64,000 nt of DNA from Paraburkholderia ginsengiterrae. Lineage in GTDB: Bacteria > Pseudomonadota > Gammaproteobacteria > Burkholderiales > Burkholderiaceae. The notes beneath the pieces were generated by a model, which made no database searches, had not been told where the DNA came from, and was given only the letters and a program-made list of their open reading frames with translations. Where the stretch lies: contig NZ_LXKA01000033.1 in the NCBI RefSeq assembly GCF_001645125.1, forward strand, positions 62,001-126,000, in the 5' to 3' direction. The position numbers and the translations under genes are program-made. This document shows positions 215 to 11,659 of the stretch, piece after piece (position 1 is the stretch's first letter; each line of letters opens with the position of its first letter).

Positions 215-1486
215 TTGGTTACAACAGGTCGCCGTTTGCGAGTGCTCCTCGCGTGCATGCCCAAGTCCGGCAGCACCTTCATGTCGTCGGCAATCGCTGC
301 CTTGCCCGGTTTTACCGAAGCCACCCTGGTGCCCTCGTATGGTCACCGCGAGCAGGAACTGTGCGTCCAGTCGCTACGTGAACAGGATGAGCGTGTCGGC
401 GAAGAGTCATACGTCGCCCAGCAGCATATCCGTTACTCCTTCGCCACCGCGGAATACATGCGCGCGTTCTCGCTGCGGCCCATCGTGCTGCTGCGGAATA
501 TATTCGATGTCGTGCCGAGCCTCGTCGACCACCATTCGATTGAAGGCAACATCTACCCCTCAGCGTTTGCACCGGCCGACATTGCGTCGCGCCCGCTTGA
601 AGAACAGGCCGATTTCGTCACGCAAATGGCCATTCCCTGGTACTTCAACTTCTACGCTTCGTGGCAACAGTGTCAGGACAAGCTCGTGGTGTACTACGAG
701 GACCTGGTCTCGCGCCCCGAGTGGGTGCTGCGGCGTGTTTGCGAGTATCTGGAAATCGACGCGTCAGATGCGCTGATCCAGAACGCGGTGTTGAATGCGA
801 ACAGCGCGGGAAAGCGCAAGAACAAAGTGTCACCCGGCCGGGGCAAGAATCTGTCGCACGACAATATCTCGGCGATCGTCAAGATGGCCAATCACTACCC
901 TGAGCTCGACTTCTCGGACATCGGCATTAGCCAGGAAATGCGCCTCGCGGCGTCCCATCCCGCTTTGCGCCATCACGAGCAACGCGTGTACTGGCTGACC
1001 GGACTGTCCGGCGCAGGCAAGACCACGCTGGCCTACGCCCTCAGGGACCGCCTGGAACACGACGGCTACCGGTGCGCGGTCCTCGACGGCGATGAATTGC
1101 GCAAGGGCATCAACTCTAATCTCGGCTTCAGCGAATACGACCGCACGGAAAACGTGCGGCGGGTGGCCGAAATCGCCACCCTGTTCCGCCAATCGGGATG
1201 CGTGGTCATTGTTGCCGTGATTTCCCCGACGTCCGCTCAACGGGAGATGGCTCGCCAGATCGTCGGCGAAGGATTTACGGAGGTGTTCGTCGACACCCCA
1301 CTCGACGTCTGCGAATCGCGCGATCCCAAGGGACACTACCGCCGGGCGCGGCAGGGCCGGCTGACCGGGTTCACGGGCGTTTCCGCGAAATACGTGCCGC
1401 CGCAACATGCGGAGATCGTGATTCGAACCACCACCACGCCCATCAACGAAGCCGTCGAGCAGCTGATCGCCTTCGAGGCGGCGTGA
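215..1486 (+). CDS. Fused sulfotransferase / adenylylsulfate (APS) kinase
   Basis: A 423-residue protein joining two steps of sulfate transfer. Residues 1 to about 250 look like a sulfotransferase: the PKSGSTF loop at 16-22 is the 5'-phosphosulfate-binding motif, and a downstream RNIFDVVPS segment resembles the 3'-phosphate-binding region. Residues from about 258 form an APS kinase with Walker A GLSGAGKTT (263-271), a DGDELRKGIN segment, VISP carrying the usual phospho-serine, and DPKGHYRRAR. The kinase half would make PAPS, the donor used by the sulfotransferase half, so direct hand-over is plausible; the acceptor cannot be read from sequence. An in-frame stop at 197-199 makes TTG 215 the first possible start; GTG 242 or ATG 257 would cut into the first beta strand. 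The gene stands alone and ends before a strong terminator. Confidence 0.85.
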   Translation: MVTTGRRLRVLLACMPKSGSTFMSSAIAALPGFTEATLVPSYGHREQELCVQSLREQDERVGEESYVAQQHIRYSFATAEYMRAFSLRPIVLLRNIFDVVPSLVDHHSIEGNIYPSAFAPADIASRPLEEQADFVTQMAIPWYFNFYASWQQCQDKLVVYYEDLVSRPEWVLRRVCEYLEIDASDALIQNAVLNANSAGKRKNKVSPGRGKNLSHDNISAIVKMANHYPELDFSDIGISQEMRLAASHPALRHHEQRVYWLTGLSGAGKTTLAYALRDRLEHDGYRCAVLDGDELRKGINSNLGFSEYDRTENVRRVAEIATLFRQSGCVVIVAVISPTSAQREMARQIVGEGFTEVFVDTPLDVCESRDPKGHYRRARQGRLTGFTGVSAKYVPPQHAEIVIRTTTTPINEAVEQLIAFEAA

Positions 1487-1560
1487 GCGTGGCCGCTGGC
1501 CGACGAGGCTGACCTGAGCGGCCACGTCCGCACGCATCCCCTTCTGACCCGTAACGGCAC

Positions 1561-1593
1561 GCGCCCACGAGGTGCCGGCCCGTGGGCGCTTTT
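1561..1593 (+). terminator. Rho-independent terminator
   Basis: The perfect 9-bp stem GCGCCCACG/CGTGGGCGC has an 11-base loop and runs straight into TTTT. It ends the plus-strand fusion gene just before the convergent helicase gene. Confidence 0.8.
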
Positions 1594-1596
1594 ACC

Positions 1597-3861
1597 CTAG
1601 TGCACTTCCCACCAGCGCGGCAGCAAACGCCGCACTTCGGGCCGCCGGTACCGGTCGTCGATCAGATGCACCACCCCGCGGTCCTGCTCGGTGCGAATCA
1701 CGCGCCCGGCTGCCTGCACGACCTTCTGCAAGCCGGGGTACAGATACATGTAGTCGTAGCCGTTGCCGAACTTCAGGTCCATCGTGCGGCGCATCTGTTC
1801 GTTGACCTCGTTCATCTGCGGCAAACCGAGCGTGGCGATGAACGCGCCGATCAGTTGCTCGCCGGCCAGATCGACGCCTTCCGAAAACGCGCCGCCGAGC
1901 ACCGCGAAGCCCACGCCCTGGTTCGCGGTACGAAAGCGCGCGAGAAACGCATCGCGCGCGGCTTCGTCCATGCCCTGCTCCTGTTCCCAGACCGGCAGCT
2001 CCGGATGCCGCTCGCGCATCAACGCGACCACGCGCTGCAAGTATTCGAAGCTGCTCAGAAAGCCCAGATAATTGCCCGGCTGCGCCGAGTACTGCTGCGC
2101 GATCAGATCGACGATCGGCACCAGCGAACGCTCGCGGTCGCGCCAGCGCGTCGAGACATTGCCGGCCACGCGCACCTGCAACTGCTCCGCGCGAAACGGC
2201 CCTTCGACGTCGAGCCATTGCGTCTCTCCGGGCAGCCCCAGCGTGTCGCGGTAGAAATGATGCGGATTGAGCGTGCCCGAAAACATCACCGTGGTGCGCG
2301 CGGCGGCGTAGCGTGGCGCGAGAAACGGTGCGGGAATCACGTTGCGCACGCAGAGCGTGGCACTGGTTTTGTCGCGTGGCGCGTAGCGGTCCGTGGCGAG
2401 CGTCACGTCGAAAATCGAATGCTCGCCGAACTGCTCGGCTAGCGCGACGAAATGCATGGCGTCGAAGAAAAAGCGCAGTGACGCTTCGTCGATGGAAAGC
2501 GGCGCTTCGGCGAGCTGATCCGTGACGGCACCGATCAGATTCTGCGCGGCCGAAAGCAGTTTGCCGGGCACGTCCGTATAGACCTGATAGGTCCCGGTCT
2601 GCGCACGTTTGACAGCGTTCCATTCGCGTTGCAGCCGTTCGAGCGGCTTGCGCAAAGGGGCCGGCGCTGTCTTGCGCGCAAGCCTGAACGCCGCCTGATC
2701 GAGCGACGCGGTGTACATGCGCCGCGCACGGTCGAGCAGGTTGTGCGCTTCGTCGACCAGCACGCCCACGCGCCATTGGTTGATCTGCGTGAGCGCGTAC
2801 AGCATGGCGCTGCTGTCGTAGTAGTAGTTGTAGTCGCCCACCACCACGTCGGCCCAGCGCGCCAGTTCCTGGGCCAGATAGTACGGACAGACTTCGTGGG
2901 CCAGCGCCGCTTCGCGCACCGCGCCGCGGCTCAGGTTCAGTCCGGCCAGCGCGGTGCTGCGCGCGTCGTCGAGCCGGTCGTAGAAGCCGCGCGCGAGCGG
3001 ACAGGACTCGCCATTGCAGGCTTTGTCGGGATGCTCGCAGGCTTTGTCGCGCGCAACCAGCTCCAGGGTTCTCAGCGGCAAGCGCGCAGCGCCGCCGTTG
3101 AGCGTTTCGATGGCATCCAGCGCCAGCGCGCGGCCAGGCGTCTTGGCGGTCAGAAAGAACACGCGGTCGATCTGGTCCGCCGCACACGCCTTGAGCAACG
3201 GGAAAATCGTCGCCAGCGTCTTGCCGATGCCGGTCGGCGCCTGCGCCATCAGCGGCTTGCCGTCGCGTGCCGAGCGATACACCGACACCGCCAGTTCGCG
3301 CTGCCCACTGCGAAACGCCCCGTGCGGAAACTGCAACGCACCGAGCGCGGCATTGCGCGCGGCGCGATGCGCCTCTTCCTGCACGGCCCAATCGAGAAAG
3401 CGCTCGCAGTGTTCGACGAAGAAAACCTCCAGATCGCGCGCGCTATGCGTCTGCGTCAGTAGCACCTCCTTCTGGCTGCCGATATCGAAGTACACCAGCA
3501 CTACCGTCAAATCCGCGAGCCCGCGTGCGCGGCACAGCAGATGTCCGTAGACGAGCGCCTGCGCCCAATGGAGCGCGCGGTGATTGGCGGGCATGCGCTC
3601 GAGATCGCCACGGTGAGTCTTGACCTCTTCAAGCCGGTTCGCTGCGGGGTCGTAGCCGTCGGCACGGCCGCGCACGGTCAGGCCGCGATGCGTGCCCGTC
3701 AGCGTGATTTCGCTTTCATAGCCGCTCGCGCGCCGCCCGGCGACCGTCGCATGGCCCGCCATGCCTTCGAGCGAAGTCGGCGCAGGAGTGAAGCGCAGAT
3801 CCAGATCGCCGCGTCTGGCGGTGAACTCGCACATCGCCCGTACGGCCACCACGTAGGTCAT
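1597..3861 (-). CDS. Fe-S XPD/DinG-type DNA helicase with N-terminal nuclease-like domain
   Basis: A 754-residue superfamily 2 helicase of the Rad3/XPD/DinG group. Walker A APTGIGKT is at 208-215 and the DEAH box at 370-373; a Q-x-x-GR-x-IR motif VI lies near the C-terminus. C275, C282, C287 and C325 sit between motifs I and II, the place of the 4Fe-4S cluster in XPD-family enzymes. Ahead of the helicase, residues about 1-160 carry D68 and an E79-V80-K81 core in a beta-hairpin setting, resembling a PD-(D/E)XK nuclease fold of Cas4/RecB type; this part is inference. The gene overlaps the end of the FAN1-like gene by 4 bases (ATGA), so the two are translationally coupled and share the LexA-controlled promoter. 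It is best read as a repair helicase acting with that nuclease, perhaps on crosslinks. Confidence 0.85.
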   Translation of the reverse strand: MTYVVAVRAMCEFTARRGDLDLRFTPAPTSLEGMAGHATVAGRRASGYESEITLTGTHRGLTVRGRADGYDPAANRLEEVKTHRGDLERMPANHRALHWAQALVYGHLLCRARGLADLTVVLVYFDIGSQKEVLLTQTHSARDLEVFFVEHCERFLDWAVQEEAHRAARNAALGALQFPHGAFRSGQRELAVSVYRSARDGKPLMAQAPTGIGKTLATIFPLLKACAADQIDRVFFLTAKTPGRALALDAIETLNGGAARLPLRTLELVARDKACEHPDKACNGESCPLARGFYDRLDDARSTALAGLNLSRGAVREAALAHEVCPYYLAQELARWADVVVGDYNYYYDSSAMLYALTQINQWRVGVLVDEAHNLLDRARRMYTASLDQAAFRLARKTAPAPLRKPLERLQREWNAVKRAQTGTYQVYTDVPGKLLSAAQNLIGAVTDQLAEAPLSIDEASLRFFFDAMHFVALAEQFGEHSIFDVTLATDRYAPRDKTSATLCVRNVIPAPFLAPRYAAARTTVMFSGTLNPHHFYRDTLGLPGETQWLDVEGPFRAEQLQVRVAGNVSTRWRDRERSLVPIVDLIAQQYSAQPGNYLGFLSSFEYLQRVVALMRERHPELPVWEQEQGMDEAARDAFLARFRTANQGVGFAVLGGAFSEGVDLAGEQLIGAFIATLGLPQMNEVNEQMRRTMDLKFGNGYDYMYLYPGLQKVVQAAGRVIRTEQDRGVVHLIDDRYRRPEVRRLLPRWWEVH

Positions 3862-5600
3862 GCGGGAGTCCCGGTGACGGCTTGCGCCACGCCGGCGTCG
3901 CCGGTGACGGGTTCATCCGCCCAGCGCACGTCGAGCACGCGCACCGGCATGCCGTGCTGAACACAGTACGCGAGCCAGCGAATCTGATTGTCCTGCAAGC
4001 GGTCGCCGGGCCCTTTCACTTCGATCAATTCGTAGCGGCGCTCCGCCGGCCAGAAGCGGATCAGGTCCGGCAGGCCCGAACGGTTGGCGCGGATATCACG
4101 CAGCAACCTCTCGAACCACAGCTTGAGATGCGCCGCGGGCAAGCAGTTGAGCGCCAGCGTGACGAGTTCCGTTGTCAGCATCCCCCAGAACACGAACGGC
4201 GACTGCAAGCCCGCCTTGCTGTGCAGATGCCGCAGGATCGTCTCGCGATAGGCGCCGCTGTCGAGTTGCGCGAGACAGGCGGCGAACTGCGGCGCGCGGC
4301 GCGCATGAAAATCCGGCGCGTGCAGATCGGCGGGACCGCGCTGGAACGGATGGAAAAATGCGCCGGGCAGTGCCGCGAACACCGGCTCCCAGCACAGGAG
4401 GCCGAACAGCGAGTTGATCAGCGCATTCTCGACGTAATGAACCGGCGCGGCCTCACAGGTCAGATGGTCGCGAGTGACGAATTCGACGGATTGCACCAGC
4501 TCGGGCCTCGGCAGCACCAGCGTGCCGCGTTCGACCGGCCGCTCCGCCACCACGCGTACCGCCGGCTCACCGCGTCTGCGCCGCAAACGCGGCAGCATGC
4601 GCGCCACGCGCTGGGCCTCTTCTTCGCTTTCCGGCGCGGCGGCGGCTTGCGAGACCAGCGCGTAGGCTTCGTCGAAACGTTCGCTGCGCTCCAGCACGCG
4701 AATGCGCCGATGACGCGCACCGGGCCACGCGCAACCCTCATAAACCGCGAGCGCGCCCGGCCAATTCTGTTGACGCTCGCAATGCTGGCCGATGCGGAAC
4801 AGCAGCTTCGCGCGACGGGTTTCAAGCCACGGATTGGCGGTCTCGATAGCCCGGACCGCCGTGACGAGATCGTCGACGGCAGCAGCGTGTCTCTCACCGG
4901 CAGGCAGCCATTCGAGCGCTTCGCGGCACGCGTGCAGCGCGAGATAAACGTCGACGTCCGCGCGCTGCTGAAACGCGCGCGACGTTGGACTGAACGCCAC
5001 TTTCTCGTACTGGAACACACCGAGGTCGGCCAGCACGAACTCCGACCATTCCTGGTGCAGATTGCCGAAGAACATCAGGCGCAGACGTTCGCACAACGGC
5101 GCGATGACGACACTGAGAACGCGATCCGCCGTTTGAGCGTGCCATGTATTGAGCGGGCGTGCCGCCGATTCGTCGCCGGTGTAAAGCGGTCGCAGCGTTT
5201 CCAGCAGATCGGGCTTGCGCAGGCTCTTTGCGCCGGGAATCAACGCGATGGCATCCGCGAAAATGTCGAGCAATTCGGCACGCGTGGTGAGCGCGAACAG
5301 TTCGTCGAGCGTGAGGCCGGGGTCGGTATCGATCCAGCCGAGCGCTGCGATCGGCGCGACCGCCTGCAACGGGCAGCCGATCTCCTCGTAAGACAGGCGG
5401 CTCGCGCGAAACAGCGTGCCTTTGCGCATCAGCATGCGCACCAGCAAGGCGCGCGAGGACTGAGGTAAGGCGGCGAACTCGCGGAGAAACGCGTGCTCGT
5501 GCGCGTCGAGCAGGTCGTCGTAACGCTGCGCGAGCCACGCGAGAGCGCGCTCGAAATTCAGCAGATAGTAGAGAGCATAGGGAGAGGCGTCTGTTGCCAC
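3858..5600 (-). CDS. FAN1-type VRR-NUC structure-specific nuclease
   Basis: A 580-residue protein whose last 80 residues form a virus-type replication-repair nuclease (VRR-NUC) domain: LPDLI with D512, then E527-V-K529 and a GPGDRLQDNQ segment. The D-x14-E-x-K spacing equals that of eukaryotic FAN1, and the length matches bacterial FAN1 homologues rather than lone VRR-NUC phage proteins. The middle region is helical, with many Leu/Ala repeats as in the FAN1 TPR/SAP arrangement. FAN1 nucleases cut 5' flaps and unhook interstrand crosslinks. The start is GTG at 5598-5600, with no better upstream codon before the operator. The helicase gene follows with a 4-base overlap. A perfect LexA box 16 bases upstream indicates SOS induction. 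Confidence 0.85.
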   Translation of the reverse strand: MATDASPYALYYLLNFERALAWLAQRYDDLLDAHEHAFLREFAALPQSSRALLVRMLMRKGTLFRASRLSYEEIGCPLQAVAPIAALGWIDTDPGLTLDELFALTTRAELLDIFADAIALIPGAKSLRKPDLLETLRPLYTGDESAARPLNTWHAQTADRVLSVVIAPLCERLRLMFFGNLHQEWSEFVLADLGVFQYEKVAFSPTSRAFQQRADVDVYLALHACREALEWLPAGERHAAAVDDLVTAVRAIETANPWLETRRAKLLFRIGQHCERQQNWPGALAVYEGCAWPGARHRRIRVLERSERFDEAYALVSQAAAAPESEEEAQRVARMLPRLRRRRGEPAVRVVAERPVERGTLVLPRPELVQSVEFVTRDHLTCEAAPVHYVENALINSLFGLLCWEPVFAALPGAFFHPFQRGPADLHAPDFHARRAPQFAACLAQLDSGAYRETILRHLHSKAGLQSPFVFWGMLTTELVTLALNCLPAAHLKLWFERLLRDIRANRSGLPDLIRFWPAERRYELIEVKGPGDRLQDNQIRWLAYCVQHGMPVRVLDVRWADEPVTGDAGVAQAVTGTPA

Positions 5601-5616
5601 GGCGCTTTCACGAAAC

Positions 5617-5632
5617 CTGTATGTTTATACAG
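5617..5632 (-). promoter_or_regulatory. LexA (SOS) box
   Basis: CTGTATGTTTATACAG fits CTGT-N8-ACAG exactly, the consensus used by LexA in gamma- and betaproteobacteria, and has the usual AT-rich centre. It ends 16 bases before the GTG start of the FAN1-like gene, so bound LexA would block its promoter. The lutC stop lies on the other side, so only the repair operon is a sensible target. Confidence 0.85.
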
Positions 5633-5664
5633 TTATGATAGCAAAGTCCGTGGCGCGGCAAGAC

Positions 5665-6249
5665 TCACGTCCCCAGCCACACTACCGTCAACGAACGCAC
5701 GCCTTGCGCGCCGCGAATCAGCACGCCTTCGATATCCGCCGTGGCCGACGGTCCGGTCACGAGCGCCGCAAAGCGGGCGTCGCGGAAATCGTCGCGCCGA
5801 TACACGTCCTGCAAGCCATCGAGCAATTGCGCCGGATCGAGCAGCACGATGAGATGCTGCACGATATACCCCAGTGCGTTGACAACATACTCGCGCTCGC
5901 TCAACCAGACGGACCCGGTCTCGGCCACGCCGAAGCGCGCCCGCACCACGCCCACGTCGATATCCTGCAACAGGGCCGGCTCCATGTCGGTTGTGAGCGC
6001 GCGTGTGCCGGGCACTTCCGCTGCCGCCGAGGCGATGGATGCCTCCGCACCGAACCGCTCTCGAATCAGCGCACTCACCTCGCTCGCGGCCGATACTTCG
6101 ACACAAGTGCCGCCCATTGCCTGCAACGCCGTCGTAAAGCGCGCGCGCAGATCGCCGCCCGCCGCGTTGAACAACGGCACGTCGGGCCGTGGCCGCGCCG
6201 GCGGCTGCGCCCGCCGCACCTTCGCCAGAAAATCCTCACGCGTTGCCAT
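5665..6249 (-). CDS. lutC: Lactate utilization protein C (LUD domain)
   Basis: A 194-residue LUD-domain protein, third gene of the lutABC operon, whose products oxidise L-lactate to pyruvate as an Fe-S complex in the cytoplasm. The sequence has the family's VSAASEVSAL and ETGSVWLSERE stretches and a C-terminal GPSATADIEGVLIRGAQG segment. ATG at 6247-6249 is chosen because GGAGG lies 6 bases upstream; a GTG 12 bases earlier lacks one. The gene overlaps lutB by 14 bases. It has no cysteine cluster of its own, as expected for LutC. Confidence 0.9.
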   Translation of the reverse strand: MATREDFLAKVRRAQPPARPRPDVPLFNAAGGDLRARFTTALQAMGGTCVEVSAASEVSALIRERFGAEASIASAAAEVPGTRALTTDMEPALLQDIDVGVVRARFGVAETGSVWLSEREYVVNALGYIVQHLIVLLDPAQLLDGLQDVYRRDDFRDARFAALVTGPSATADIEGVLIRGAQGVRSLTVVWLGT

Positions 6250-7630
6250 GACCGCCTCCACGATTCTTCTTGTACCAGGCGTGGAAGGTCAGCTTCGGCG
6301 CCTCCGGCAGCTCGCGTTGCCTGCCCCAGATATTGAGCGGGTTATACAGCACGAAATTCGGCAAGCGCCGCAACGCGCTGCCCATCGACGACACCGTCGC
6401 GCGATACAAGGTCGGGCTCGCCAGCAACCGGCCTGCCATTTTCAGCACTTCCTGTTTGACGAACGGCACCTCGTGATGCTCGGCGATCACCGTGCGCCAT
6501 TTGTAGATCTGCTCGTGAATATTGATCTTCACCGGGCACACATTCGTACAGCTGCCGTTGAGCGTTGACGCGAACGGCAACGCGCTATAGCGTTTCAGAT
6601 CGAACGTCGGATTGATGATCGCACCGATCGGCCCCGAGTACGTGCCGCCATACGACAGCCCGCCGCTGCGCCGGTACACCGGACAGGTGTTCATGCAGGC
6701 ACCGCAACGGATGCACTTGAGCGAGTACCAGAAATCCTCCATCGCAAGCCGCTCGGAACGGCCGTGATCGACGAGGATGAAATGCATCTCGGTGCCCGGA
6801 CGCGGCGCGCGGAAATGCGAGGTGTACTGCGTGATCGGCGAGCCGAGCGCGCTGCGCGACAGCATGCGGATGAACACGCCGAGGTCCGAGACCTTCGGAA
6901 TCAGCTTCTCGATGCCGATCGACGCAATATGCAGCGGCGGCACATTGGCCGACAGGTCCGCATTGCCTTCGTTAGTACACACGACTACCGTGCCCGTCTC
7001 GGCGACCGCAAAATTGCAGCCTGTCATGCCGGCCGTCTTCTCGCGCAGGAAGTACGGGCGCGTGTTCATCCGCTGGCTCTCCGCGAGGTAGTGGATGTCG
7101 CTATTTTGCGGATCGGTGCCAATGGTGCGGCCGAACAGTTCGGCGACGTCCGCGCGCAGTTTGTGAACCGCCGGCACCACCATGTGGCTCGGATCCTGAT
7201 GATCGAGCTGCTGGATGCGTTCGCCCAGGTCGGTTTCCATCACCGTGATGCCGCGCGGTTCGAGATACTCGCGCATCTTGCATTCGTCGGTGAGCATCGA
7301 CTTGCTTTTGACCAGCGTGGTCATGCCGCGCTCGGACATGAGCTGGTGCACGAGCGCGTTGTGCTCTTCGGCCGTGGCGGCCCAATGAACCTTGACCCCG
7401 TTCGCCTCTGCTGCGGACGCGAACTGCTCCAGATAGCCGGCCAGATGCGAGAGCGTGTGCTCCTTGATGCCCGAGGCCAGCTCGCGCAGCGTCTCCCACT
7501 CGGCCATGCCGTGCGCCTGCGCGTCGCGCTTCTCGCGCAAATCCCACAGGCGCCGGTCGTGAAACGCCACGTGCTCCGTCTTGCCGATGAAAGCCCCGGC
7601 GGCTTTCGCGTGATCGATCCGGTTGCTCAT
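6236..7630 (-). CDS. lutB: Lactate utilization protein B (Fe-S, LUD domain)
   Basis: A 464-residue protein with an N-terminal LUD domain followed by a ferredoxin-like module: C-x-x-C-x-x-C-x3-CP (CIRCGACMNTCP) and a later CTNVCP, giving two 4Fe-4S sites, then the C-terminal DUF3390 region. It is the electron-carrying subunit of the LutABC lactate oxidation system. The frame stays open upstream to 8011, but that stretch is antisense-like coding over lutA. The true start is the ATG at 7628-7630, which overlaps the lutA stop by 4 bases. The overlap chain A-B-C shows one transcript. Confidence 0.92.
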   Translation of the reverse strand: MSNRIDHAKAAGAFIGKTEHVAFHDRRLWDLREKRDAQAHGMAEWETLRELASGIKEHTLSHLAGYLEQFASAAEANGVKVHWAATAEEHNALVHQLMSERGMTTLVKSKSMLTDECKMREYLEPRGITVMETDLGERIQQLDHQDPSHMVVPAVHKLRADVAELFGRTIGTDPQNSDIHYLAESQRMNTRPYFLREKTAGMTGCNFAVAETGTVVVCTNEGNADLSANVPPLHIASIGIEKLIPKVSDLGVFIRMLSRSALGSPITQYTSHFRAPRPGTEMHFILVDHGRSERLAMEDFWYSLKCIRCGACMNTCPVYRRSGGLSYGGTYSGPIGAIINPTFDLKRYSALPFASTLNGSCTNVCPVKINIHEQIYKWRTVIAEHHEVPFVKQEVLKMAGRLLASPTLYRATVSSMGSALRRLPNFVLYNPLNIWGRQRELPEAPKLTFHAWYKKNRGGGHGNA

Positions 7631-8370
7631 GCGCGTGCTCCATTCAGGATCTGCGCGATATGGATGAAGCGCGCGTCCGCCTTCATGCGTTCCGCGCAGC
7701 CTTGCTGATGCATCAGGCAAGACATGTCGCCCGACACGATGTACTCGGCGCCCGCGTTCAGGTGATCGCGCACCTTGTCCTGCCCCATGCGCACCGACAC
7801 CGGCTCTTCGGTCACCGAGAAAGTGCCGCCAAAACCGCAGCATTCGTCGGGCCGCGCCGGCTTGACGAACTCGATGCCCTTCACGCCTTCGAGCAGCGTA
7901 CGCGGCTTCGAGAACGGCGTGCCCGCGACCTCCGAAATCGACGCTTCCTTCAGATGCCGCAGCGCGCTGCAACTGTTGTGCAGGCCGACGCGATGCGGAA
8001 ACTCGGCCCACGGAAATTCACGCGCGCCGACCACGTCATGCAGAAACTCGACGAGTTCGTAAGCGTTCGCCCGGACCTTCTTCACCTCGTCGGTCTGCTC
8101 GAGCGCCGTCAGATGCTCGCGTACATGATGGATGCAGCTCGCCGACGGTCCGACGATGTAGTCGTAGCCCGCGAAGTTGCGCGCGAACACGCGCTCGGCG
8201 CCGGCTGCCTCGGCATGCGCGCCGCTGTTCGCCATCGGCTGGCCGCAGCAGGTTTGCTCCTGTGGATAGTCGACTTCGAGGCCGAACCGTTCGAGCAATT
8301 CGAGCGTGGCGATGCCCACTTCGGGATAAAACGCGTCGATGAAGCACGGAATAAACAGGGCGACTTTCAT
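7627..8370 (-). CDS. lutA: Lactate utilization protein A (cysteine-rich CCG domains)
   Basis: A 247-residue protein with two cysteine-rich CCG modules (QTCCGQP near residue 40 and ECCGFGGTFS near 190) of the glycolate/lactate oxidase Fe-S subunit family. It is the first gene of lutABC. The length is typical (about 240). ATG at 8368-8370 starts the protein cleanly at MKVALFIPCF. The operon promoter and a FadR-type operator lie in the 307 bases upstream. Confidence 0.92.
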   Translation of the reverse strand: MKVALFIPCFIDAFYPEVGIATLELLERFGLEVDYPQEQTCCGQPMANSGAHAEAAGAERVFARNFAGYDYIVGPSASCIHHVREHLTALEQTDEVKKVRANAYELVEFLHDVVGAREFPWAEFPHRVGLHNSCSALRHLKEASISEVAGTPFSKPRTLLEGVKGIEFVKPARPDECCGFGGTFSVTEEPVSVRMGQDKVRDHLNAGAEYIVSGDMSCLMHQQGCAERMKADARFIHIAQILNGARA

Positions 8371-8677
8371 AAGCTCATTGAAATCAGAAACGGCACCAGG
8401 CGATTTGCCTACTCTACTGCGGAATCAGACCGGCGAGCGTGTGCGCCGGCGCGGCGCACCGGCATGACCAACGCGGCTGACCGGCAAGCATGCAGCTCGG
8501 CAGTTTTCTTGCTGCTGACTCCATGATTTCCCGAATTTAGTCAGACTGGTATTGTTGGTCTGACCAAGAATATATGGAAGTCGGCGGACGGTGTCAACCG
8601 GGTGATTGGCGAGGAATGGGGCCGCGGTGGTGAGCGGCCTGCGGGACAGTTACCGGCTGGGCGCGGCAGCCGGTCAA
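8371..8677. other. Intergenic region, lut promoter and operator
   Basis: No gene seen. The lutA-proximal 150 bases show nothing distinctive. The FadR-type palindrome at 8540-8567 is the clear signal, followed by AT-rich sequence to about 8580. Confidence 0.6.
8540..8567. promoter_or_regulatory. FadR/LldR-type operator
   Basis: TTGGTCTGACCAA (8555-8567) is a perfect 6-1-6 palindrome of the TGGTC-N-GACCA form bound by FadR-subfamily GntR regulators. It is also part of a wider repeat, GTCAGAC (8540-8546) with GTCTGAC (8558-8564). It lies between the GntR gene and lutA, so the neighbouring regulator is the obvious ligand-responsive binder. Confidence 0.7.
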
Positions 8678-9424
8678 TCAGGAAACGACGCTCGGCGAAG
8701 GCTTCGCCGCGTCTTCGCGGTACATCTCGCGCACGTAGGTGAGGTGGCGCTCGGCCGCCTTGCGGGCCTTTTGCGCGTCACGCGCCATGACGGCGTCGTA
8801 GATGGCCTGGTGCTGGCTCATCAACTGCTTTTCCATGGCGTCGTCATAATCGATCAGCCGATGGTACTGGCGCATACCTTCGCGGATCAACGTATGGATG
8901 CCGTGCATGACGTGCGCAAGCGCGATATTGTGCGTGGCGTCGGCAATTGCCAGGTGAAACGCAGCGTCCAGTTCCGCAAGGTTCACGCGATCCTGCGACA
9001 ACGAGCCGGCCTTCAACGCCTCGAACGCCGCGGTGATCTTGCGCAGGTCGGCGGCCGTGGCGCGTTCGGCGGCATACACCGTCGAAATCGATTCGAGCCC
9101 CTGGCGCAATTCCAGAATGTCGGCGCTGGTGCGCGGATTTTGCAGCAGCAATTCGGCGAGCGGCTTGGAGATGATCGGTGCCGTGACGTCGACCACCGTG
9201 AAGCCGCCCCGCCCCGAGGTCTCGATGTAGCCGTCCGCTTCCAGCCGGATCAGGGCTTCACGCAGCGAGGGCCGCGACACGCCGAGCTGCGTGGCCAGAT
9301 CGCGTTCGGCCGGCAACCGGTCGCCGGGCATCAGCGTGCCGTCGGAGATCAGTTGCTTGATCTGGTCGGACACCACGTCGGAAAGTCGCTTACGCGTGAA
9401 GGACTGGATCGGACGAAATTCCAT
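8678..9424 (-). CDS. FadR-family GntR regulator of the lut operon
   Basis: A 248-residue regulator with an N-terminal winged helix (about residues 10-75, with PAERDLATQLGVSRPSLREAL) and an all-helical FCD effector domain from about 90. The metal/ligand residues of the FCD domain appear as D-x3-H (AELDAAFHLAIADATHN) and a later H in AERHLTYV. The position immediately upstream of lutABC on the same strand, with a FadR-type palindrome between them, makes it an LldR/LutR-like lactate regulator. ATG 9422-9424 (MEFRP) fits the family N-terminus; the upstream extension is low-complexity. Confidence 0.85.
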   Translation of the reverse strand: MEFRPIQSFTRKRLSDVVSDQIKQLISDGTLMPGDRLPAERDLATQLGVSRPSLREALIRLEADGYIETSGRGGFTVVDVTAPIISKPLAELLLQNPRTSADILELRQGLESISTVYAAERATAADLRKITAAFEALKAGSLSQDRVNLAELDAAFHLAIADATHNIALAHVMHGIHTLIREGMRQYHRLIDYDDAMEKQLMSQHQAIYDAVMARDAQKARKAAERHLTYVREMYREDAAKPSPSVVS

Positions 9425-9681
9425 GGGCGATGGTGAGCGAAGCTGGTGAATGAAGCCGGTTGGTGAAGCGAAGATCAGGCACAAGACAGCGGCGTGGACG
9501 CAACGTGATACAACGCTGAACCACGGCGCGACGGTGAACGAATTATACCGTTCAACAGTGCGAGTCGAATCCGCGCGCGCGGCGCGTCGGCCACGGCTGA
9601 GCGCTGGCACCTGCAATAGCCGCCAGCGTTGCCGCCCGCGAGTTGCCCGCGCCGCATTCGCGATACCGCAGCGCCCGCAAC

Positions 9682-11478
9682 CTAACGTGCCCCCGCCGCG
9701 TAGAAACTCGCCAGATCGCGCTTGAGCACGTGCAAGGCCGCATCGTCGAGATAGATCATGTGGCCGGTCGGATAGTACGCGATCCGCACGTTGTCGCGCA
9801 GCGCCCCGTCAATGCCCAGATGCGCAAGCGCGTACTCCGTCGCGTAGAACGGCGTGGCCAGGTCGAAATAGCCGTTCACGGACAACACGCGCAGTTGCGG
9901 ATTCTGCCGCATCGCCTCAGCCAGATCACCGGCCGCATAGGGCACCGACAAGTGTTCGCCCCACCATTCGCGATGCTTCCAGTCCCACTGGGTCAACGCT
10001 TCGTCGTTGAACACGCGATAGGTGTCGGTGGGCGTGAAATGCAGGTCCTCGGTGAGATGCTTATGCAACGCGGCGTCGAAAGCACTCGACACGCCGCTCA
10101 CCGAGGCGTCGAAATCAGGCCGCTCGGACACGCTGTCGAAGTCGATCCCTTCGAAGCGCGCGTCGTAGCGGCCGACGCTGCGCGCCTGATCGCGCAGCAA
10201 TTCACTGCGATAGCGCGACGGATAGAGACGCAAACGGCTGCGCTTCACGTAGCCAACGTCGAGTCCGGTGAACTGAGCGACGCGCGCGGCGATGGCGTCG
10301 CGCTCGGCGTCCGGCAGCGCGTCGCCCTGCGCGAGCGCCTGCGCATAAGGTCCGCGAGCGAAGGCCCGTGCTTCGTCGAGAAAGGCCGGCAGGCTGGCCG
10401 GCTTCGGCACGATCTTGTTGTGATACCAGGCAATCGCCGCAAAGCTCGGCAGATAGCTTTCACTCTTGAAATCCGAGCCCGGTGAGAACGCGGATGAATC
10501 GAGCACCGACGACAGCAGGATCACGCCGTTGATCGCGATATTGTCCTGTCCCAGCTGATACGCGAGCATCGCGGCACGCGCGGTGCCATATGATTCGCCG
10601 AGCAGATACTTCGGCGAATTCCAGCGCTGATTCACCGTCAGATAGCGGTCGATGAACTGTGAAAACGCGGCAAGATCCTTGTCGACGCCCCAGAAATCCT
10701 TGCCCGTGCCGCGGCCGACGACCTTCGAAAGCCCCGCGCCGACGGCATCGATAAATACCAGATCGGTGGTGTCGAGCAGGCTGTCGGGATTGTCCTCCAG
10801 CGTGTACGGCGCGGGCGGCGTCCCGGCGGGACTCGCGGTATGCACCCGCTTCGGCCCGATCGAACCGATCATCAGGAACACGGTGCCGGCACCCGGACCA
10901 CCGTTGAAGAGAAAAGTGACCGGCCGCGTGGCGGGCGTTTTGCTGGCCACGGTGTAGGCGACATAGAAGACGCTCGCATTGGCCTGGCCGGTCTTGTCGC
11001 GTAACAGCAGACTGCCGGCCGTTGCCGTGTAGTCGATCTTGCGGCCGTCGAGCTGGATCGAGTGCCGGGTCACCGAGGTCGTTTCCGGCGGCACCGGGAT
11101 AGGCTGCGATGCGGGATTCGCGTTACGCGGTGGCGCACTGCCCGACGCCTCGCTGGATGCGGCGACTGGCACCGCCGACGGGCGGCTCGCGCGCGCCGGC
11201 GTGGCGTGCGGCTGCTGGTCCGTCTGCCCGTTCACGTCCGGGCGTGCATTGGATGTTTCGGTCTGAACGCGAGGGGTGTCGGGTTCCGGGGTTGCCGCCT
11301 CCGACGCTGCCGCTTCGGCGCTCATCCCGGCATCGGGCGAATCGCCAGGTTCCGCGGCCGCGCACATCTGGCTGAACACGGCGAGCACGGCAAGCAGGAG
11401 CGCGACGGCCACGAGCGCGACCGCCGCCGATCCCGCCATCAACGGTTGGCGCAACGAGAAATAAATGCGAAGGCCCAT
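9682..11478 (-). CDS. Serine carboxypeptidase-like S10 peptidase
   Basis: A 598-residue secreted or membrane-anchored hydrolase of peptidase family S10. A hydrophobic stretch near residues 14-38 ending at CAAAEP looks like a signal peptide or anchor. A low-complexity Pro/Ala/Thr linker follows to about 140. The catalytic domain shows NGGPGAGT (oxyanion region), the nucleophile Ser in LLGESYGT, an Asp in NGYFDLATP and a His in PTGHMIY. It probably trims peptides in the periplasm. The start chosen is ATG 11476-11478 with GGGA upstream; an in-frame TTG at 11562 would add 28 residues lacking signal character. A single gene. Confidence 0.8.
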   Translation of the reverse strand: MGLRIYFSLRQPLMAGSAAVALVAVALLLAVLAVFSQMCAAAEPGDSPDAGMSAEAAASEAATPEPDTPRVQTETSNARPDVNGQTDQQPHATPARASRPSAVPVAASSEASGSAPPRNANPASQPIPVPPETTSVTRHSIQLDGRKIDYTATAGSLLLRDKTGQANASVFYVAYTVASKTPATRPVTFLFNGGPGAGTVFLMIGSIGPKRVHTASPAGTPPAPYTLEDNPDSLLDTTDLVFIDAVGAGLSKVVGRGTGKDFWGVDKDLAAFSQFIDRYLTVNQRWNSPKYLLGESYGTARAAMLAYQLGQDNIAINGVILLSSVLDSSAFSPGSDFKSESYLPSFAAIAWYHNKIVPKPASLPAFLDEARAFARGPYAQALAQGDALPDAERDAIAARVAQFTGLDVGYVKRSRLRLYPSRYRSELLRDQARSVGRYDARFEGIDFDSVSERPDFDASVSGVSSAFDAALHKHLTEDLHFTPTDTYRVFNDEALTQWDWKHREWWGEHLSVPYAAGDLAEAMRQNPQLRVLSVNGYFDLATPFYATEYALAHLGIDGALRDNVRIAYYPTGHMIYLDDAALHVLKRDLASFYAAGAR

Positions 11479-11659
11479 GGGGTTCCCGACGACGAGTCGA
11501 TATGCGCCGATGTCCAGAGTGTTCCAGCTTAAGACGAATTCGGCGCTGGATTCTTGATGCAAGCCTCGCCGGCGTCAATCGAAAGGCAGCGGCTTACTCA
11601 TCACCGTGCCGCCCGTATTGACCGCGATGCATATCTTGCCAAAGCGCGAAGACGCTTCC

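Follow-up and report, generated by a model that had tools for sequence, protein, structure and literature searches.

The DNA analysed here, called the window below, is a stretch of 64,000 nucleotides from Paraburkholderia ginsengiterrae (contig NZ_LXKA01000033.1). It carries a two-gene operon on the minus strand, with the following features:

5617..5632, minus strand: LexA (SOS) box CTGTATAAACATACAG, 16 bases upstream of the GTG of the FAN1 gene
3858..5600, minus strand: FAN1 nuclease gene (580 aa, GTG start; Pfam, phmmer)
3858..3861, minus strand: ATGA, the 4-base overlap of both reading frames
1597..3861, minus strand: gene for an EndoDinG-type nuclease-helicase (754 aa, ATG start)
3337..3861, minus strand: PD-(D/E)xK (Cas4/EXO5/RecE-like) nuclease domain (helicase residues 1-175)
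1597..3321, minus strand: Rad3/XPD-type SF2 helicase core (residues 181-754)

An earlier note made from this DNA had described both open reading frames and their overlap; both frames were recovered when re-read, with bases 3858-3861 shared between them. Immediately next to the operon lie a LUD-domain gene and a gene for a sulfotransferase/APS kinase (Pfam), and a promoter scan of positions 1450-5800 returned no sigma-70 promoter above threshold. The sulfotransferase/APS kinase frame (215-1486, plus strand) encodes a fusion protein, with the sulfotransferase domain at the N-terminus and the APS kinase domain at the C-terminus (Pfam), which brings together two steps, sulfate activation and transfer.

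The product of the 3858-5600 frame belongs to the FAN1 family by its domains and catalytic spacing, its nuclease function being putative. Three Pfam domains scored above the cut-off, FAN1_HTH (PF21315, residues 10-91), FANC_SAP (PF18081, 96-153) and VRR_NUC (PF08774, 449-560). The D-x14-E-x-K spacing that the note had recognised in the VRR-NUC domain corresponds to D512, E527 and K529, which are kept in 113, 112 and 113, respectively, of the 113 loci holding both proteins. Bacterial FAN1 has served in structural work as a model of its human counterpart. The structures of P. aeruginosa FAN1 (PA1865; PDB 4r89/5y7g) have the same HTH, SAP and VRR-NUC arrangement with the D-x14-E-x-K spacing, and match our protein over nearly its full length (residues 4-561, E 9e-182, phmmer). 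Pseudomonas FAN1 cleaves 5'-flaps according to the accessible part of PMC4103454, and a crosslink-unhooking role is given to PA1865 in the portion of PMC12796719 available to us. In the accessible parts of this literature the P. aeruginosa protein is described alone, with neither a helicase partner nor a LexA box.

The second protein combines a helicase with a further predicted nuclease. Its core matched DEAD_2 and Helicase_C_2 (Pfam) and contains a Walker A motif (APTGIGKT, 208-215), a DEAH box (370-373) and four putative Fe-S cysteines (C275, C282, C287 and C325). The four cysteines, G213, K214 and the DEAH box are all retained in 113 out of 113 orthologues. The description of this protein as an XPD/DinG-type Fe-S helicase holds for the core, which is Rad3/XPD-like and carries the four cysteines, but it overlooked an N-terminal nuclease domain that matches EndoDinG. 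Pfam gives no credible match for this N-terminal domain. The structural model of the domain (pLDDT 89), used for fold searches instead of the full-length model (pLDDT 75, pTM 0.62), matched PD-(D/E)xK folds with both Foldseek and VIA-align 2. Alignment placed its nuclease residues at H37, E51, D68, E79, K81, Q101 and Y105, and all of them are intact in the 111 orthologues aligned there, two more being gapped in that region. When a profile of the domain was run against the PDB, the DinG of Finegoldia magna (9kqh) was the sole match, with 26-28% identity to the N-terminal domain; the same structure is the best full-length PDB relative of the helicase.

A protein of this kind has been named EndoDinG (PMC11981726, section 3.7, on the DinG of Bdellovibrio bacteriovorus). 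It shares with ours the N-terminal PD-(D/E)xK domain with its H, E, D, E and K residues, and the four-cysteine (CCCC) Fe-S motif in a DinG/Rad3-type core, the cluster being putative in our protein. For its endonuclease activity in B. bacteriovorus, PMC11981726 cites its authors' own unpublished data. The main text of that paper makes no mention of FAN1, whereas the gene is here the second of an SOS-boxed FAN1 operon. Because the N-terminal PD-(D/E)xK nuclease has kept its catalytic residues, we place the helicase with EndoDinG rather than with XPD or FANCJ; its nuclease activity is predicted from these residues and from the model. One could instead see an XPD/FANCJ-like helicase paired with FAN1, with a non-catalytic N-terminal region. 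The Rad3/XPD-like score of the core speaks for this, although it lies below the NCBIfam cut-off (rad3, 127.7 bits against 246.95); as the fold and the catalytic residues of the N-terminal region are conserved, we consider it very improbable. Orthology with XPD or FANCJ also fits poorly with the best PDB match, which is a DinG. The analogy with FancJ/XPD-type helicases in the earlier note fits the core; once the nuclease domain is counted in, the protein is closer to DNA2 in its layout, although the helicase superfamily differs. DNA2 is an SF1 helicase whose Fe-S cluster lies within the nuclease part. In the comparison with eukaryotic FAN1 plus FANCJ/XPD or DNA2, our protein differs from DNA2 in that its helicase is of the SF2 Rad3 type and its cysteines lie in that part.

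We then compared genomes, and conservation of the pair beyond this strain, on which the note had made its reading depend, was borne out in genus relatives, in a phylum sample and in Pseudomonadaceae-like loci. From the strain's own genome and 40 relatives (n = 41), FAN1 was found in 23 and the helicase in 24 (E < 1e-200), and the two genes adjoin by coordinates in all 23 FAN1-holding genomes. The pair is present in 22 of the 25 genomes of the same genus, the other three (G003, G009 and G010) having neither gene. Both genes look degraded in G008. Pieces in tblastn had made the genes of G004 and G007 appear broken; this was rejected, the G007 helicase and both FAN1 genes being open in the fetched loci, and the G004 helicase, located at a contig end, was left out of the judgement. 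Among 200 genomes sampled across the phylum, FAN1 matched in 26, strongly in 20 (E < 1e-160), and the helicase in 19 (E < 1e-60). Both proteins occur in 18 of these genomes and their genes are adjacent in every one of the 18. Lone genes account for 2 of the 20 strong FAN1 matches and 1 of the 19 helicases; of all 26 FAN1-positive genomes, 8 are without the helicase, and the match in G208 (E 2e-4) may not be FAN1 at all. Co-occurrence in the 200 genomes was highly significant, uncorrected for shared ancestry (Fisher test, P = 2e-22 with the 20 strong matches, 1.5e-18 with all 26).

Locus structure was read in 80 named loci, which are the best 80 of 533 relatives and hence closely related (members of Paraburkholderia, Burkholderia, Trinickia and Achromobacter, plus a MAG filed under Rudaea). 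Among these best 80, the helicase gene comes after FAN1 in 78, of which 77 show the 4-base overlap; in the remaining two (L060 and L080), the contig ends less than 2 kb from FAN1. A second set consisted of 119 genomes that we call Pseudomonadaceae-like, an inferred family label, where FAN1 (present in 91) shares 52-64% identity with that of P. aeruginosa. The helicase gene adjoins FAN1 in 18 of 20 loci fetched from this set and is absent in the other 2. The divergence of FAN1 and that of the helicase are correlated (r = 0.97), which is also compatible with mere co-inheritance.

Several loci depart from the usual arrangement. In L143 (G090), the helicase is split into overlapping frames (9356-9721 and 9688-11652) that cover profile positions 2-114 and 109-754. 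Divergent FAN1-like frames of 719 aa were found in L159, L160, L161 and L162 (from G075, G150 and G198, with two copies in G075), and nothing in the 16-17 kb fetched around them matched the EndoDinG profile. In L140 (G055; 7410-10849), a FAN1-like gene lies in two pieces around two small opposite-strand frames that resemble an insertion-sequence transposase pair.

Since each gene occurs alone in some genomes, neither strictly needs the other: the helicase is found without FAN1 in G029 and G059, and two Vibrio plasmid records have FAN1 with no helicase within 5 kb. These lone genes would suit two independent SOS repair enzymes that have a common promoter and different substrates, FAN1 acting on flaps or crosslinks and EndoDinG on R-loops, D-loops and stalled forks; so would the EndoDinG-type proteins known elsewhere (Finegoldia magna, 9kqh; Bdellovibrio, PMC11981726). 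We regard this as possible but rather unlikely, given the adjacency in 78 of the best 80 named loci (77 with the overlap) and in 18 of the 20 Pseudomonadaceae-like ones. Adjacency and the 4-base overlap argue for matched expression of both products, and adjacency in so many bacteria points to a pair dedicated to DNA repair.

We also considered a role as a module for defence against phages or plasmids, as the PADLOC model typeIV_DinG (PDLC01439) matches the helicase core (E 1e-117). However, no PADLOC model matches FAN1 at E 0.01, and the immediate neighbours are the LUD-domain and sulfotransferase/APS kinase genes and not csf genes, which speaks against membership in the Type IV CRISPR DinG (Csf4) group. 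The presence of the pair in those 22 of 25 same-genus genomes, the similar divergence of both proteins and the SOS box likewise make a defence role highly doubtful. The typeIV_DinG label was given here to a helicase with no csf gene beside it, and EndoDinG proteins may be prone to such mislabelling in automatic defence annotation.

The LexA box that the note had placed in front of FAN1 is present (CTGTATAAACATACAG, 5617-5632) and is conserved in relatives. It is the single occurrence of CTGT-N8-ACAG in the 64-kb window. A lone loose motif proves nothing by itself, because 35 out of 100 shuffles of the window contain at least one and the whole genome holds 59 such sites versus 47 for a reversed control pattern. 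The tighter pattern CTGTAYNNNNRTACAG, which the operon box fits, occurs 11 times in the genome versus once for the control. In this genome, two CTGT-N8-ACAG boxes lie upstream of lexA itself, and others precede radical SAM, 2'-5' RNA ligase and DUF5131 genes. Among the best 80 of 533 relatives, 74 loci have CTGT-N8-ACAG within 250 bases upstream of the operon, i.e. 74 boxes in 23,439 upstream bases versus 7 in 1,193,877 bases elsewhere, a density about 500 times higher. Paraburkholderia xenovorans LB400 (L077), for example, has the pair and the box CTGTATATACATACAG. The boxless named loci are L059 and L113, where an insertion sequence cuts the box, L072, which has lost the left half, the two from Achromobacter (L134 and L137), with a CTG-N10-CAG of degenerate interior, and L133, with no box. 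In the Pseudomonadaceae-like set, 26 of 27 loci have a site with at most 3 mismatches to CTGTAYNNNNRTACAG in the 120 bases upstream, compared with 49 of 842 background windows.

The phylum sample sets a limit to this control. No CTGTAYNNNNRTACAG site with at most 2 mismatches was found in the 120 bases upstream of 8 of its 18 pairs (L142, L143, L148, L149, L150, L154, L156 and L158), all outside Burkholderiales and the Pseudomonadaceae-like genomes, and 4 of these 8 have no such site even with 3 mismatches allowed. Another pattern, TTAG-N6-TACTA, is a LexA site of other gammaproteobacteria. With up to 3 mismatches it was found in 5 of 10 loci, made up of these eight and L138 and L139 with the usual box, versus 106 of 386 background windows; the best matches have 2 mismatches (L148, L154 and L156). 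The SOS control claimed in the note thus stands for Burkholderiales and Pseudomonadaceae-like genomes (74 of the best 80 and 26 of 27 loci boxed), and it is not general because 8 of the 18 phylum pairs have no clear box. Box-based control in these two large groups is well supported, and repression by LexA at our locus is predicted from the box.

Two observations concern boxes elsewhere. Three of the phylum loci (L142, L143 and L150, from G086, G090 and G126 of one family) share a degenerate site, ATGGAT(GC/AA)ATGA(A/C)CAG, upstream of FAN1; located 20-50 bases from the estimated FAN1 start, it could be a LexA box that has drifted, or else a different operator. In G356, contigs C1-C4 contain 21 boxes of the CTGTAYNNNNRTACAG type, and on contig C1 one variant, CTGTACGGATATACAG, is present six times in one orientation or the other; among the matches listed, it is absent in G005, G019 and G020.

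We also followed the insertion sequence that interrupts the box. In L059 (Paraburkholderia solitsugae), an IS1595-family element of 1,059 bases (5893-6951; PF12762 transposase) cuts the LexA box of FAN1. Copies or ends of this ISCsp2-like IS1595 element (1.06-1.07 kb) were found in L059 (5893-6951), L113 (1-117) and L250-L288. A search for element ends in 145 genomes of the genus, with at most 2 mismatches and free flanks, gave 70 matches, 50 of them in ten genomes; the genome of our window yielded none. Exactly 12-14 bases past these 50 ends stands CAG (47 cases) or CAA (3 cases), where the right-hand part of a CTG-N10-CAG box would lie. The other 20 ends occur one per further genome, and none has CAG at the expected place (G401 has CAA). 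A difference of one base or more from the searched end is seen in 19 of these 20, G434 being the exact exception. For the 46 ends lying in fetched stretches (CAG in 44, CAA in 2), the 24-base flanks comprise 45 distinct sequences. Seven distinct complete copies (L059 being identical to L271) lie between CTG and CAG with the intervening ten bases duplicated, the left half-box being CTG in six and TTG in one. FAN1 follows the element in L250 and L271.

In G402, 19 ends resolve into nine insertions and one unpaired end. This genome and G406 retain 5 intact CTGTAYNNNNRTACAG boxes each, versus 9-15 in ten comparison genomes without ends; the other eight end-bearing genomes have 7-21, so that depletion is restricted to G402 and G406. 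Pfam matched 6 of 10 frames beside the ends (a UvrD-like helicase, a uracil-DNA glycosylase-family protein, two radical SAM proteins, a Y-family polymerase and a 2'-5' RNA ligase), and the other 4 matched nothing. For ISCsp2 and its plasmid relatives (L289, L290, L291, L295, L296 and L297), CAG is present at 7 of the 8 ends read, with 4 distinct flanks; the half box is absent in L296, a plasmid record. The ISCsp2-like copy of L290 (Achromobacter pestifer) adjoins a gene for an SOS-response-associated peptidase. From these flanks, the element may be an insertion sequence that targets SOS operators, including the box of the FAN1 operon. If so, colonisation of SOS operators by a transposable element would change the wiring of the damage response operon by operon.

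The conservation of the box bears on P. aeruginosa. In the accessible portion of PMC12796719, PA1865 is the FAN1 gene and is induced by UV-C and ciprofloxacin, PA1866 is among the UV-induced genes, and both are listed without a known LexA-like repressor. The same portion gives a LexA regulon of 15 genes (Cirz 2006, as cited there). Our analysis predicts the same SOS control by LexA for PA1865/PA1866. PA1044/PA1045, which are listed LexA targets, had been a candidate for the FAN1 pair and were rejected, as PMC12796719 names PA1865 in the part available. By its adjacency in relatives, PA1866 is probably the helicase gene. Since 26 of the 27 Pseudomonadaceae-like loci are boxed, SOS control of PA1865/PA1866 has perhaps been overlooked; if PA1866 is the helicase, one would predict from the boxes a LexA operon that has been missed in P. 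aeruginosa.

Taken as a whole, the comparison confirms a real and conserved operon of FAN1 and EndoDinG, SOS-boxed in Burkholderiales and Pseudomonadaceae-like genomes. We consider it probable that this two-gene SOS operon co-produces FAN1 and the EndoDinG nuclease-helicase for joint repair of crosslinks or other lesions. Upon DNA damage, RecA would trigger the self-cleavage of LexA and free the box at 5617-5632, where LexA presumably represses the operon, and both proteins would then be made together, probably by co-translation. Judging from its family, FAN1 would most likely cut 5'-flap or gapped DNA beside a crosslink or a similar lesion and so unhook it. The helicase, according to its domains, would load on single-stranded DNA and unwind it 5' to 3', opening or extending the flap for FAN1, while its nuclease domain would trim the displaced strand. 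The nearest eukaryotic picture would be FAN1 with DNA2. Repair of crosslinks by both proteins jointly is plausible. More tentatively, the two could form a single SOS-induced machine, made of a 5'-flap nuclease, a single-strand endonuclease and a 5'-3' helicase, as a counterpart of FAN1 plus DNA2 and encoded by an overlooked LexA operon of Pseudomonas and Burkholderiales.

The component proteins were already known. Among the papers listed from the open-licence literature of PMC, we found no description of a FAN1-EndoDinG operon or of its regulation, and nothing on cellular partners of bacterial FAN1. If our reading is true, a co-regulated helicase with a second nuclease gives bacterial FAN1 a cellular setting, and a dedicated partner of FAN1 would make two-enzyme crosslink unhooking directly testable.
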